Shown here: one piece after another, positions 6,258-21,519 of the stretch
Layout: each line of letters opens with the position of its first letter
How positions within the stretch are numbered: position 1 is the stretch's first letter
IMG/VR virus record: IMGVR_UViG_3300006753_000027
Span: 1-34,308 of that record
DNA: 34,308 nucleotides
Direction: 5' to 3' (one strand)
Source: a virus
Program-made: the position numbers and the translations under genes
The notes under the pieces: model-generated
Told to the model about the DNA's origin: nothing
The model's input: only the letters and a program-made list of their open reading frames with translations
The model's database searches: none

Positions 6258-6312
6258 ATCGTATTTATTTCTTAATTAGTCATAACTTATTTTGTGCCCA
6301 GTTAAGGCAGGA

Positions 6313-6340
6313 TATGGAGAGGGGTCATGCCCCTCCCATA
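6313..6340 (-). terminator. strong GC hairpin after the capsid gene
   Basis: On the minus strand TATGG+GAGGGG pairs with CCCCTC+CCATA around a 5-base loop (11 bp, one bulged base). It lies 40 bases past the capsid stop and 56 bases before the next ATG. There is no U-run, so it may be a partial terminator or an mRNA-stabilising 3' end that keeps capsid mRNA abundant. Confidence 0.6.
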
Positions 6341-6380
6341 CCACTTACCATTTGTTCCTAACTAAAGCTCAATACGAGAC

Positions 6381-14619: not shown

Positions 14620-14670
14620 ATATTTTGTCAAAAGTTATAAGATCTAATACTTTTTTTCAGCCTCGATCCT

Positions 14671-14709
14671 CTCTCCCTGGGTCGTCCCCGTAGGGACTAC
14701 CCGGGGGGG
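14671..14709 (+). other. 16-bp GC-rich hairpin
   Basis: CTCTCCC, GGGT and GTCCC pair with GGGAC, ACCC and the first poly-G run around the loop CGTA, with one bulged T and one mismatch. Two T-G pairs fit the plus strand better than the minus strand. No gene is read on the plus strand here, so it may act as DNA structure or as an RNA on either strand. Confidence 0.6.
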
Positions 14710-14816
14710 AGGGGGGGGTAGGGGGGGTAATTACATATACCTTATAGTTTTACCCCCCCCCTATACCTTGTTTTTTCGCTAATTTAAGCCAAATTGACCT
14801 ATAGGAGGGGGGGTAA
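14703..14816. repeat. poly-G/poly-C tract cluster with inverted and direct copies
   Basis: On the plus strand G runs of 7, 8 and 7 lie at 14703-14709, 14711-14718 and 14721-14727. A C run of 9 is at 14753-14761, and a GGAGGGGGGG run is at 14804-14813. The unit TAGGGGGGGTAA (14719-14730) is inverted as TTACCCCCCCCCTA (14750-14763) and repeated directly with one change at 14802-14816. The first three runs could form a G-quadruplex with a fourth strand. No gene fits in 14620-14819. Homopolymer length may be affected by sequencing. Confidence 0.8.
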
Positions 14817-14819
14817 TCG

Positions 14820-16671: not shown

Positions 16672-16681
16672 ATAAACTAAA

Positions 16682-16758
16682 ACACGATAGGTCAGTGGAT
16701 GCATTCGGTTTTTTGGGGTAACCGTCTGCCCTTAGGCAGATCCACTAACCAATCGTGT
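16682..16758 (-). ncRNA. three-way-junction leader RNA upstream of the primase gene
   Basis: On the minus strand ACACGAT, GGT and AGTGGAT pair with ATCCACT, ACC and ATCGTGT, with one T-T mismatch and one G-T pair, giving about 18 bp. Two inner hairpins follow: CTGCC-TAAG-GGCAG and CGGTT with an ACCCCAAAA loop and AACCG. The G-T pair would be C-A on the other strand, so the minus strand is the likely RNA. The helix ends 10 bases before the primase ATG and is followed by TTTTAGTTT. It could be a cis-regulatory element; no known riboswitch consensus was recognised. Confidence 0.7.
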
Positions 16759-16793
16759 CTTTTTTACTTCCCAAAATTATTTAATGCTTCTCT

Positions 16794-16823
16794 ATTATAC
16801 GTCAAATACAAAACCCGCCGCAA
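16794..16823 (-). promoter_or_regulatory. probable promoter for the primase leader
   Basis: A perfect TATAAT (plus positions 16794-16799) has TTGCGG 18 bases upstream on the minus strand. The -35 overlaps the terminator hairpin of the preceding gene. The predicted start near 16787 would give a 116-base leader that contains the structured RNA. Confidence 0.5.
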
Positions 16824-16834
16824 GGACGGGTTGT
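16806..16834 (-). terminator. terminator after the SSB-like gene
   Basis: On the minus strand AACCCG pairs with CGGGTT around TCCTTGCGG, followed by TTGTATTTG. It begins 14 bases after the stop of the SSB-like gene. The U-run is short, so leakage into the primase operon is likely. Confidence 0.65.
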
Positions 16835-16847
16835 GCATAAGGTGTGA

Positions 16848-17306
16848 CTAGAATGGAACTTCTTCTGTGTTTACAGGTGCTGTGCCTTCTCGAGTGACAG
16901 TATACTCGGTATCAACTCCAGTACCTGTTCTCTTTACGTTAATTGTTTCTCCAGGTTCTACTCGTGCATCCCTCATTGCTGAGAAGAACTTTCCACGTGT
17001 AGTTCCTTGTGTCATCTCTGCTTCACCACCTGATTCATCGGTGAAGTAGAAAATATATTCCTTACCATCTGATGTTCTATAAAGTTCAGGGGTTTCATCT
17101 CGCTGTTCTTTGTGCATCACTTCCTTGAAAGTGAGTACCAGTGAATCTCCGTCTCCAAGTCGTTTGTTTAAGTACTTGCTGTTTGAGTAGTCTGCTGCTG
17201 GGGCTTGTAGATCTGCGTTGTCCCATATGGACATAGTTTTTGTGCTTAAAAAATTTATTATATCTTTACTCTCATCCTCGTATTTCATTGGGCGTTTTTG
17301 TATCAT
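16848..17306 (-). CDS. putative single-stranded DNA-binding protein
   Basis: The protein has 152 aa. The C-terminus ends TEEVPF, an acidic tip like the DDDIPF tail of SSB proteins that recruits partner enzymes. The preceding GKFFSAMRDARVEPGETINV and KRTGTGVDTEYTVT blocks match the OB-fold-like 'G..v.v.R.GtG..t.Y.v' ending seen in phage SSB-type proteins. A Ser/Lys-rich N-terminus precedes it. It is the first gene after the minus-strand early promoter and lies upstream of primase and helicase, where an SSB would be expected. The ATG at 17306 lies about 23 bases after the predicted transcription start. Function is inferred from the tail and neighbours. Confidence 0.65.
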   Translation of the reverse strand: MIQKRPMKYEDESKDIINFLSTKTMSIWDNADLQAPAADYSNSKYLNKRLGDGDSLVLTFKEVMHKEQRDETPELYRTSDGKEYIFYFTDESGGEAEMTQGTTRGKFFSAMRDARVEPGETINVKRTGTGVDTEYTVTREGTAPVNTEEVPF

Positions 17307-17954: not shown

Positions 17955-18151
17955 AAATTACCGATCATCAAAAATCTCGTATACTCTACGAGTTGAAAAA
18001 AGCGAGTTGTAAAACTGAAATCTGGAATGACTTAGAAGTCGTTGATAAAGGTGCAGCTAGTGACATCATCTCAGCATTTCATAGAGGGGATAGAGACATT
18101 GCCCTCAATCAATTAAAACATTTAATCCCAACCTATGAGTCTGGAATTTAG
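17951..18151 (+). CDS. hypothetical protein, 66 aa, upstream of Sak4-like ATPase
   Basis: It begins MKITDHQKSRILYELKKASC and is helical; the middle (GAASDIISAFHRGDRDIALN) resembles the 'K..AS.lI.al..gd...a' helical segments found near recombination proteins. It overlaps the ATPase gene by 17 bases and is coupled to the preceding microprotein. It may be a partner or regulator of the ATPase. No family is assigned. Confidence 0.65.
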   Translation: MKITDHQKSRILYELKKASCKTEIWNDLEVVDKGAASDIISAFHRGDRDIALNQLKHLIPTYESGI

Positions 18152-18827
18152 AAAAGCAGAACGTAAGCAAGCAAAACTAAGAGTTGGACTTGTTGCCCCA
18201 TCAGGTTTTGGAAAGACCTATAGCGCCCTTCGAATTGCAAAAGGCTTAGGAGGGAAAGTAGCTATACTTGATACAGAAAATGGATCAGCTGATTTGTATG
18301 CAGGAGACTTTGACTACGATGTGCTTCAAATGAATGCACCGTACCAAGCCAATAAGTACATCATGGCAATTGAAGCTGCAGAAGAAGCTGGTTATGACAC
18401 ACTAATCATTGATAGCTTGACCCATGCTTGGACAGGTGAAGGTGGAATGCTAGATAAGCAGGGTGCTATTGCTGATAAAACTGGGAATTCTTGGGCTGCT
18501 TGGCGCCAAGTTACACCAGACCATAATCGACTTGTTGAGAAGATACTACAAAGCAAACTACATATTATTGTTACTATCCGTGCAAAGACAGACTGGGTAG
18601 TTGATGCAGGTAAGCCTACTAAGATTGGTCTTGCCCCACAGTTTAGAGATGGTATTGAATATGAGTTTACTTGTGTGTTTGATCTTGATAAGAGTCACAA
18701 TGGACATGCAAGTAAAGACCGAACCAGTATGTATGATGGTAGTGTTATACCAATGACAGAAAAAGTTGGGGAAGAGCTCCTAGAATGGCTGGGTGGATCT
18801 AAACCATCCGTAGAAGTTATAGAGTAG
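18135..18827 (+). CDS. Sak4-like RecA-fold ATPase (AAA_24 family), recombination
   Basis: The protein has 230 aa. Walker A is APSGFGKT (residues 21-28), followed by the strand KVAILDTENGSADLY (41-55) with Asp46. Walker B is TLIIDSL (89-95), followed by THAWTGEGG and NSWAAWRQVTPDHNRLVEKI. The IIVTIRAKTDWV segment is the sensor strand. This is the layout of the phage AAA_24/Sak4 group, small RecA-core ATPases that support single-strand annealing recombination. It lies in the plus-strand early operon with an overlapping small helical gene. No RecT/Erf annealase is visible in the window, though the probable SSB is nearby. Confidence 0.9.
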   Translation: MSLEFRKAERKQAKLRVGLVAPSGFGKTYSALRIAKGLGGKVAILDTENGSADLYAGDFDYDVLQMNAPYQANKYIMAIEAAEEAGYDTLIIDSLTHAWTGEGGMLDKQGAIADKTGNSWAAWRQVTPDHNRLVEKILQSKLHIIVTIRAKTDWVVDAGKPTKIGLAPQFRDGIEYEFTCVFDLDKSHNGHASKDRTSMYDGSVIPMTEKVGEELLEWLGGSKPSVEVIE

Positions 18828-18828
18828 T

Positions 18829-18897
18829 ATGTGTCCACACTTACCAGATGATCCAGATATCGAAGTTTGTGATTTCTGTGGATCTAAAAACGAGTAG
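18829..18897 (+). CDS. zinc-knuckle microprotein, 22 aa
   Basis: It reads MCPHLPDDPDIEVCDFCGSK and two more residues. CPH and CDFC could hold one zinc ion. It begins one base after the ATPase stop. The last codon is three bases before the structured RNA. Confidence 0.55.
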   Translation: MCPHLPDDPDIEVCDFCGSKNE

Positions 18898-18900
18898 ACC

Positions 18901-19015
18901 TATAGGGTCTTCTCACTCTGCTCCGATCGTTTGAACTATGAGTCATCTCCCGCAAGGGGGCCGCCAAGGTAATGCTTACATGGATAACGACGCAGTGGAG
19001 TGATAAGCCCCTATA
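18901..19015 (+). ncRNA. cloverleaf-like structured RNA A (115 nt)
   Basis: A long closing helix runs from 18901 to 18931 paired with 18986 to 19015. TATAGGG pairs with CCCTATA, CTT with AAG, TCACTCTGCT with AGTGGAGTGA (two G-U pairs), CG with CG and TCGTT with AACGA, with only single-base interruptions: 27 pairs in all. Inside are three hairpins: 18932-18945 (short), 18947-18960 (CTCCC-GCAA-GGGGG with a GNRA tetraloop) and 18964-18983 (CCA/GTAA with TTAC/TGG). The G-U pairs and the GNRA loop fit only the plus strand. The helix ends at the A of the next ATG. No Rfam family was recognised by eye. Confidence 0.75.
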
Positions 19016-19152
19016 TGAAATATCATGTATCTTCTTTAGTGATGTTCTTGTTTGTTCTAGTTATGATGGTCATAGCAGTCATTCCCTATATCTTTTACAG
19101 CAACATGGCACTTATCTGTGAGGATGCAATGTATAAAGTAATTGCTGGATAG
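19015..19152 (+). CDS. single-pass membrane protein, 45 aa
   Basis: It begins MKYHVSSLVMFLFVLVMMVI and continues AVIPYIFYSNMA, a strong membrane helix at residues 6-30, with a short tail containing Cys and Asp. The ATG overlaps the last base of RNA A, so the RNA helix could mask the start. No ribosome site is seen. The function is unknown. Confidence 0.65.
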   Translation: MKYHVSSLVMFLFVLVMMVIAVIPYIFYSNMALICEDAMYKVIAG

Positions 19153-19212
19153 CTTGTCGGTCTTGCTCCCTGTATCATCTTTCAACGGAGGGTACAGAGA
19201 ACACAATTTATT

Positions 19213-19502
19213 CGACGTTGGCTCACTCTAACGGGAGTGCTAGCACCAAGGTCGACTCCTATACCCACCCACGGGTAGGAGCAAGGTGGATAAGTGTTTT
19301 CAGGGTCGTTCTTAAACGACGTATAAGTATATCTCATTTGTCGCTCTCAAGGCTTGTTTTTGAGGGCGGCTCTGAGAACATTCATGTCTTTACGCTGCGA
19401 GTTTCGGTGCGGTTACTCGCGGTGGGTGTAATCCTCCTCACCCGTTAGCATAAACGACGCTTGGCTCAGTCAGTCCCCCTGTACTGGGCCGTAGCGTAAA
19501 GA
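19213..19502 (+). ncRNA. multi-domain structured RNA B (about 290 nt)
   Basis: This stretch has no convincing gene but dense pairing. Hairpins: 19213-19254 (CGAC/TTGG/CACTC with GAGTG/CCAA/GTCG); 19256-19281 (CTCCTA/CCC with GGG/TAGGAG); 19305-19320 (GTCGTT-CTTA-AACGAC); 19332-19377 (TCTCA and CGCTCTCAA with TTGAGGGCG and TGAGA). The 3' domain is closed by a perfect 10-bp helix, 19387-19396 with 19493-19502. It encloses 19397-19420 (GCGAGT/ACTCGC), 19424-19443 (GGGTG/CACCC) and 19463-19490 (GGCTCAGT/ACTGGGCC). Several pairs are G-U only on the plus strand. It ends seven bases before the next ATG. Confidence 0.75.
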
Positions 19503-19509
19503 TTTGAAT

Positions 19510-19647
19510 ATGGAACATACAACATGTGATAAGTGTGGAATGAAGCGTAATGCTATCACTGCGCCCGAGTGCCCTACCTGTAAGTTTGGGCTTAAAGGAA
19601 ACAATCGCAAGCAACCATATAGACGCAATCCTAAAGAAGAGGAATAA
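19510..19647 (+). CDS. zinc-ribbon protein, 45 aa
   Basis: It reads MEHTTCDKCGMKRNAITAPE then CPTCKFGLKG, two CxxC pairs 15 residues apart, and ends in a basic tail with KQPYRRNPKEEE. The ATG lies seven bases after RNA B. No enzyme motif is present. It is probably a small DNA- or RNA-binding zinc protein. Confidence 0.75.
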   Translation: MEHTTCDKCGMKRNAITAPECPTCKFGLKGNNRKQPYRRNPKEEE

Positions 19648-19648
19648 A

Positions 19649-19657
19649 TGGTATAAT
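19649..19657 (+). promoter_or_regulatory. extended -10 promoter
   Basis: TGGTATAAT is a TGn-extended -10 with a perfect TATAAT. No good -35 is present, which is normal for this class. It would start transcription near 19664, ahead of the two genes at 19710 and 19810. Confidence 0.6.
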
Positions 19658-19709
19658 AGATAGATGCACAACCTAAAAGGTTTACAAACCAACCATAAGG
19701 GGGTATCCT

Positions 19710-20042: not shown

Positions 20043-20068
20043 AAAAAACCCCCTAAATTGGGGGTTTT
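20043..20068. terminator. bidirectional intrinsic terminator
   Basis: AAAACCCCC pairs with GGGGGTTTT around TAAATT, with U-rich ends in both directions (six U's on the minus strand). It lies between convergent transcription units: the plus gene ending at 20013 and the minus gene ending at 20098. Confidence 0.92.
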
Positions 20069-20352: not shown

Positions 20353-21519
20353 TTATTTCTTGAAGTAATCGCTTCTCTTAATTGAGAAGTCTAATTCATA
20401 AGCTTTAGTTTCTGTCTTTCCCCTACTGTGTGCATAGAGATAGTTTTTGACGTCACTGTATTTCCATCCGAAATAAGTAACTGCTTTAACTATGACATAC
20501 CACCTTCTTCCAGCGATTCCCCTTGCAACCGCATTAGCAGTTCTTTGCTCTTCTGTTCCAATGTTTTCAAACCATACTTCATCGATGAAACGCCGGAGGT
20601 CATATGCGATAGCTCTCTCTTTGTGAATGTTACGTTCTGTGATCTTAATCTCTGCCTTAATTTCTTTATCAATTTTAAGTTCTGTTTCCTTGTCAGGTGG
20701 GACATACGCAATTCCAGTATATAGGTGTGAGTAATTGCGGGGTATCCAAATCATACCGTTATCACCCCAGTAAGGTCCCCAGGAATTAATGAGTCCTAAA
20801 TAAGGCTCACCATTGTAATCCTCTCTCCATGCTACTGCGCACATATCATGCCCAGACCATGAACTGTCTGGAAACTTTGCTGGAACGACACCTCCATTGC
20901 GAGCCTTGTTATACTCGCGGTACCATTTCATCCCAATCTTCACCGGTCTCTTTTGTTCAAACATGTAACGAACTGTTGCATCAAATATGGCCTGAGAGCC
21001 TCTAGAACGCGTCACATACACGTAAGAGCCCCCTTTATTGTCTTTTGCACTTTCACGCATCTCAGGGGTCTCTTGGAGCCTCAGATACGCATCCTCTTTA
21101 CCAACATATCCTTCATTGGGAGCTAGATCATAATCACATACCCCCTCATTAACTAATACAGCAACAGAATCCTTTAAATAAGCACCATATCCAATTCTTG
21201 AGCTAGGGTATTTGCTATCAGTCTTAATCTTCCAATAACCGTGTCTAGGACTAATTTCTTTACTAGTAGTCTGATGCGTACATCCAAAAGTGGAATGCAT
21301 AGTGCAAGAGCTTGTTCTCCCCTGATTCAAAACTCTATGCTTACGTGCACTAATAAACCCATCTTTAGGGATTATAGGGGCACCAAACACCACTATATCG
21401 TCATATGCCAAGTTACGAGGGTCTGTATCGTGATCCTCATTATGGACATAACCTAGGTGCTCGCTATCTTTCGGTTCTCTCCTCAAGATATTTTTGAGCC
21501 ATTGCATAAGTATTGACAT
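20353..21519 (-). CDS. papain-family (C1) cysteine peptidase, putative endolysin
   Basis: The protein has 388 aa. All papain landmarks are present in order: NQGRTSSCTMHSTF with oxyanion Gln66 and nucleophile Cys72; SGHDMCAVAW with His224; and LINSWGPYWGDNGMIWIPR with Asn245 and the 'NSWG..WG..G' signature. No signal peptide is visible and there is no long propeptide; residues 1-60 are charged. Residues 285-388 are an extra helical, basic region that could be a binding domain. The gene is followed after one base by a holin-like gene, so release through a holin and cleavage of wall peptides or a surface protein is plausible. It could instead process proteins inside the host. The substrate is unknown. 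Confidence 0.85.
   Translation of the reverse strand: MSILMQWLKNILRREPKDSEHLGYVHNEDHDTDPRNLAYDDIVVFGAPIIPKDGFISARKHRVLNQGRTSSCTMHSTFGCTHQTTSKEISPRHGYWKIKTDSKYPSSRIGYGAYLKDSVAVLVNEGVCDYDLAPNEGYVGKEDAYLRLQETPEMRESAKDNKGGSYVYVTRSRGSQAIFDATVRYMFEQKRPVKIGMKWYREYNKARNGGVVPAKFPDSSWSGHDMCAVAWREDYNGEPYLGLINSWGPYWGDNGMIWIPRNYSHLYTGIAYVPPDKETELKIDKEIKAEIKITERNIHKERAIAYDLRRFIDEVWFENIGTEEQRTANAVARGIAGRRWYVIVKAVTYFGWKYSDVKNYLYAHSRGKTETKAYELDFSIKRSDYFKK

Follow-up and report, generated by a model that had tools for sequence, protein, structure and literature searches.

Gene setting of the locus

The window analysed here is the whole 34,308-base stretch of an IMG/VR virus record, the source of which is an uncultured podovirus-like phage. 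The minus strand carries the terminase, portal-like and major head genes, among others, and a small island of genes lies on the plus strand. The phage has no close cultured relative, the best terL match among phage records being 34% identical, and none of the 84,980 genomes searched for host assignment yielded a terL relative. Most gene starts of the genome have no Shine-Dalgarno site, and a search of the whole 34 kb for tRNA or tmRNA returned none. The features of the island are as follows, L002 being the related record IMGVR_UViG_3300025122_000097:

About 17.37 to 20.07 kb, plus strand: small gene island
First in order, plus strand: ribbon-helix-helix-like (RHH) ORF, 50 aa
Between the RHH-like ORF and the Sak4-like gene, plus strand: 99-aa ORF and 66-aa ORF
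18135-18827, plus strand: Sak4-like ATPase gene
18829..18897, plus strand: CxxC ORF, 22 aa, directly 3' of the Sak4-like gene and preceding RNA A, in a region near-identical in L002
18898..19018, plus strand: RNA A, companion element that fills the gap before ATG 19015
19015..19152, plus strand: membrane-type ORF, 45 aa, flanked by RNA A and RNA B
19161-19503 (to 19509 with the last helix extended), plus strand: RNA B, between the 45-aa membrane-type ORF and the 45-aa CxxC ORF
19510..19647, plus strand: CxxC...CxxC (zinc-ribbon-like) ORF, 45 aa, its start adjoining the 3' helix of RNA B
After the 45-aa CxxC ORF and before the terminator, plus strand: small membrane ORF, then 67-aa ORF
20045..20068, plus strand: intrinsic terminator closing the rightward operon

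The 45-aa membrane-type protein is 100% identical in L002, with one synonymous difference in its gene, and the zinc-finger matches of the 45-aa CxxC...CxxC ORF are weak and below cut-off. The gap between these two ORFs measures 357 nt (19153-19509, from the stop at 19152 to ATG 19510), and the predicted fold of RNA B spans 19161-19509. The sequence-only reading had described a gene-free gap; it is gene-free, but it sits inside a compact operon, with plus-strand ORFs on both sides and a terminator only at 20045. No terminator was found at the 3' end of either RNA A or RNA B and no strong promoter for either; together with their placement, this makes both look like spacers within one transcript. 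RNA B lies between genes and has no terminator of its own, as an intercistronic structured mRNA element would, and we infer that it is co-transcribed with the flanking genes as one transcription unit.

RNA A is predicted to form one long branched hairpin (z -3.6, with 0/200 shuffles as good), whose basal helix begins 3 nt past the stop (18895-18897) and has the A of ATG 19015 as its last base; the GGAG upstream of the 19015 ORF sits inside its stem. Two substitutions separate it from its copy in L002 (C18949U and G18959A), leaving the predicted fold unchanged. They were rejected as evidence of pairing, as 91 of 400 random double transitions (23%) also keep the fold.

Fold, strand and coding content of RNA B

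Folding of the gap predicts a structured element of about 345 nt (343-349 nt), organized as three closed multibranch domains:

19161..19286, plus strand: domain 1, with a 9-bp closing helix 19161-19169/19278-19286 (p 0.86)
19170-19176/19191-19197, 19212-19255 and 19262-19277, plus strand: branches of domain 1, pair probabilities 0.7-0.98
19292..19383, plus strand: domain 2, with closing helix 19294-19304/19371-19381
19305-19320 and 19340-19370, plus strand: hairpins of domain 2, flush with the closing helix, the second having 4 G-U pairs in 13 bp
19321-19339, plus strand: linker of domain 2, 19 nt, unpaired
19380..19509 (core 19386-19503), plus strand: domain 3, a closing helix around a three-way junction

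This layout replaces the seven successive stems seen in the sequence-only reading. The roughly 290-nt extent which it proposed, 19213-19502, is indeed structured; RNA B nevertheless begins about 52 nt earlier and reaches about 345 nt, since the pairing of 19161-19169 with 19278-19286 closes domain 1. The perfect 10-bp helix noted there was found again (TCTTTACGCT/AGCGTAAAGA, 19387-19396 / 19493-19502), enclosing the 116-nt domain at the 3' end. The closing helix of domain 3, at which an inverted repeat (I1; 20 nt, 85%) is located, extends to 19380-84/19505-09 and terminates one base before ATG 19510. Near-continuous 24-bp duplexes are present in domain 2 (11+13 bp) and domain 3 (13+11 bp). A pseudoknot suggested between CCUCCU and GGAGG found no support, as it would cost 7.3 kcal/mol against a gain of -7.0 kcal/mol, with loop complementarity at chance level.

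In energetic terms, RNA B looks like a real structured plus-strand RNA, and its excess of folding over shuffled sequence is confirmed. The plus strand of 19161-19503 folds at -136.7 kcal/mol (z -5.8; 0/100 shuffles as good), with z -4.4 for the minus strand, and the dense helices claimed for 19213-19502 were borne out, at -116.6 kcal/mol and z -5.5 on the plus strand and z -3.5 on the minus. When taken singly, the domains gave z-values of -5.4 (domain 1, 0/200 shuffles as good), -5.8 (domain 2), -5.2 (domain 3) and -6.0 (domain 3 extended), all somewhat inflated because the borders were picked after folding. A scan of the genome in 290-nt windows, covering 420 of 472 strand-windows, placed the largest excess over shuffles at 19141-19430 on the plus strand (-27.7 kcal/mol; genome mean -3.0, sd 6.2). 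The G-U pairing noted on the plus strand was likewise upheld, with 18/116 pairs in the plus-strand fold vs 9/111 in the minus-strand fold, so that the plus strand is favoured in both z and G-U count. The GC content of RNA B is 50% vs a genome mean of 41%, which is the 99.5th percentile.

Other intergenic structure was observed in the window. The second largest fold excess among the scanned windows is 16676-16965 on the minus strand, at the gap 16705-16847 between a primase-like gene and the upstream 152-aa gene. A strong hairpin (GGUAUGGGAGGGGCAUGACCCCUCUCCAUAUCC, 6258-6380, minus strand) stands 3' of the major head protein gene and may be a terminator or processing site. The intergenic interval 14632-14819, flanked by the genes of a 118-aa HJR-like and a helicase-like protein, contains G/C-tract hairpins (z -3.2 on the plus strand) and several plus-strand GGGGGGG runs with G-quadruplex potential; the surrounding module is unaligned to the phage of L002.

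The frames that run through RNA B had been called unnatural in composition, and their codon scores agree: measured by the phage's own codon usage, the 76-aa plus-strand frame and the 84- and 51-aa minus-strand frames score -0.3 to -0.4 bits/codon, compared with +0.32 for Sak4 and -0.16 to +0.24 bits/codon for the small neighbours. No frame on either strand has a Pfam or PHROGs match. A hidden protein was therefore rejected on both strands, and the conserved protein that the sequence-only reading named as the finding that would tell against an RNA was not found on either. An Rfam scan returned nothing at gathering thresholds and, with permissive filters, nothing up to E 5 beyond chance matches; mir-306 (E 0.24) and ACA59 (E 4.9) were rejected as such, being eukaryotic families far below gathering scores. 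The group I intron, ribozyme, riboswitch, tmRNA and RNase P models in Rfam gave no match to RNA B, and there are no direct repeats of at least 12 nt in 18800-19700.

Relatives and the possible origin of the 3' end

L002 is the sole other record in which RNA B occurs, identical at 342/343 positions; the single difference, A19326G, falls within the unpaired domain 2 linker. The region as a whole is about 99% identical between the two. Between 12.83 and 16.80 kb, and again from about 21.6 to 27.1 kb, the window has no alignment to the phage of L002, so that the shared part bearing RNA B is a module. Of the 16 differences from L002 in the Sak4-like gene, 15 are clustered at 18179-18185 and 18344-18378, which has the look of a recombination patch. 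Searches through the peptidase, the helicase and the small ORFs found as relatives only the contig of L002 and a short near-identical fragment; the peptidase-like protein (388 aa, 20353-21519, minus strand; PHROG peptidase, E 6e-8) has this contig as its sole IMG/VR relative.

A further record, L003, holds a Sak4 that is 64% identical and the same order of RHH, p66 and Sak4. RNA B is absent from it, and a transglycosylase-like gene directly follows Sak4 with no RNA gap. Searched with covariance models of RNA A and RNA B, about 0.7 Mb of relatives gave no match besides L002; the RNA B model added none in 26 whole virus records, nor in 9 cellular genomes, the latter searched without a positive control. 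A weak 39-nt model match in L009 (E 0.038) covers one hairpin only, and blastn against phage and plasmid records gave no homologue. The closing-helix scan of IMG/VR gave one further match, L090, which was rejected: it lies in a different phage with just a weak terL match, the sequence enclosed by its arms is poorly folded, and we estimate that chance would yield about 2 such matches.

L002 additionally carries a cassette of about 433 nt (L002:10599-11043) that is absent from the window, inserted after the 45-aa CxxC ORF and 160 nt downstream of RNA B. It holds three small ORFs led by Shine-Dalgarno sites, in a phage mostly without them: a 31-aa membrane-type ORF (MKNL...YTLHWAVA*), a CxxC ORF and a third small ORF. 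The 27 nt at 19477..19503 on the plus strand are identical at 26/27 positions to L002:10692-10718, the end of the 31-aa ORF plus a few bases, and both copies stand about 10 nt ahead of a CxxC ORF start. The lone mismatch, at U19482, is a bulge in the predicted fold, and IMG/VR holds no third copy. By this match, the 3' strand of domain 3 is related to a gene end, and the presence of the match within the L002 cassette suggests that the site recombines. To judge from these sequences, either the cassette would be a gene-pair version that lacks the body of the RNA, or domain 3 may have grown on a gene end.

Possible roles of RNA B

The reading that we tentatively favour, at somewhat less than even confidence, is that RNA B is an orphan intercistronic structured RNA of the rightward operon, which would act in cis on the small genes flanking it. 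It draws on the fold excess, the plus-strand G-U bias, the raised GC, the absence of a coding signal, the fit from ORF to ORF, the absence from L003 and the presence of RNA A. Against it, the one relative, being 342/343 identical, shows no covariation, and the fit to the start codons could follow from recombination inserting units between genes. The closed, flush junctions may hold shut the region around the start of the next ORF (19510, and 19015 in the case of RNA A), and/or the near-continuous duplexes of domains 2 and 3 may serve nuclease processing; the small membrane and zinc-type proteins would then be made only once the structure is opened or cut. A cut at the helix base would yield an mRNA with almost no leader, in keeping with the scarcity of Shine-Dalgarno sites at the genes of this phage.

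A somewhat unlikely alternative is that RNA B functions in trans as a stable phage non-coding RNA with host or phage targets, either excised from the operon transcript or transcribed from an unrecognised promoter. In its size, its three multibranch domains and its raised GC, it resembles typical independent structured RNAs, whereas the missing terminator at its end, the lack of a strong promoter upstream, its position flush against coding starts and the lack of a relative in any family library argue against this. It is improbable that RNA B is a spacer made by recombination and lacking present function, that is, a cassette junction whose inverted repeats arose from template switching or gene-end fusion. 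The near-match of its 3' end to the cassette ORF end, the cassette lying so close downstream in L002 and the patchy distribution of RNA B would fit such an origin; however, all three domains, beyond domain 3 alone, far outfold their shuffles. That RNA B is near-unchanged in both related phages also speaks against it, albeit weakly because the whole region is so nearly identical. An element acting as DNA through its inverted repeats (a replication origin, packaging or recombination site) is highly improbable, as the well-folding minus strand and the nearby Sak4-like recombination gene are outweighed by twice as many G-U pairs on the plus strand, its better fold and the lack of direct repeats.

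Among known systems, an intercistronic RNA acting in cis is nearest in logic to the RNase III sites of T7, which are intercistronic processing hairpins of phage mRNAs. Both are structured spacers in a polycistronic phage transcript with long, near-continuous duplexes; RNA B differs in being several times larger, with three multibranch domains, and its cleavage is a proposal. The sequence-only reading had likened the element to GOLLD or ROOL while recognising no motif of either, and the Rfam models did indeed go unmatched, even with permissive filters. RNA B is likewise non-coding, densely structured and phage-encoded, and shares with them the "ornate" layout. ROOL env-120 is about 660 nt, GOLLD is often >800 nt, and they are often found near tRNA islands (PMC12286853). 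RNA B does not reach their roughly 600-800 nt and upward, being about half their size or less, lies within an operon and has no tRNA nearby; the likeness was dropped, and membership is excluded on the grounds of model, size and setting. Bacterial and metagenome surveys have yielded candidate structured RNAs that are also intergenic, structured and without known function; those rest on comparing diverged copies (PMC2864571), whereas RNA B has one near-identical copy only.

A broader proposal, speculative and with little likelihood in our estimate, is that an undescribed phage intercistronic class has its first members in RNA A and RNA B; in this class the basal helix would stop exactly at the start codon that follows, and processing there would release leaderless mRNAs for tiny membrane and zinc proteins or yield a stable RNA, the elements being exchanged between phages with those cassettes. 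Many phage non-coding RNAs have been found through covariation and so must be widespread, and strong signals confined to single genomes are missed by such surveys. If real, RNA B would show how RNA structure could let a phage mostly without Shine-Dalgarno sites control the smallest of its accessory genes, and its three domains, two neighbours and start codon at a helix base would make a clear test system.
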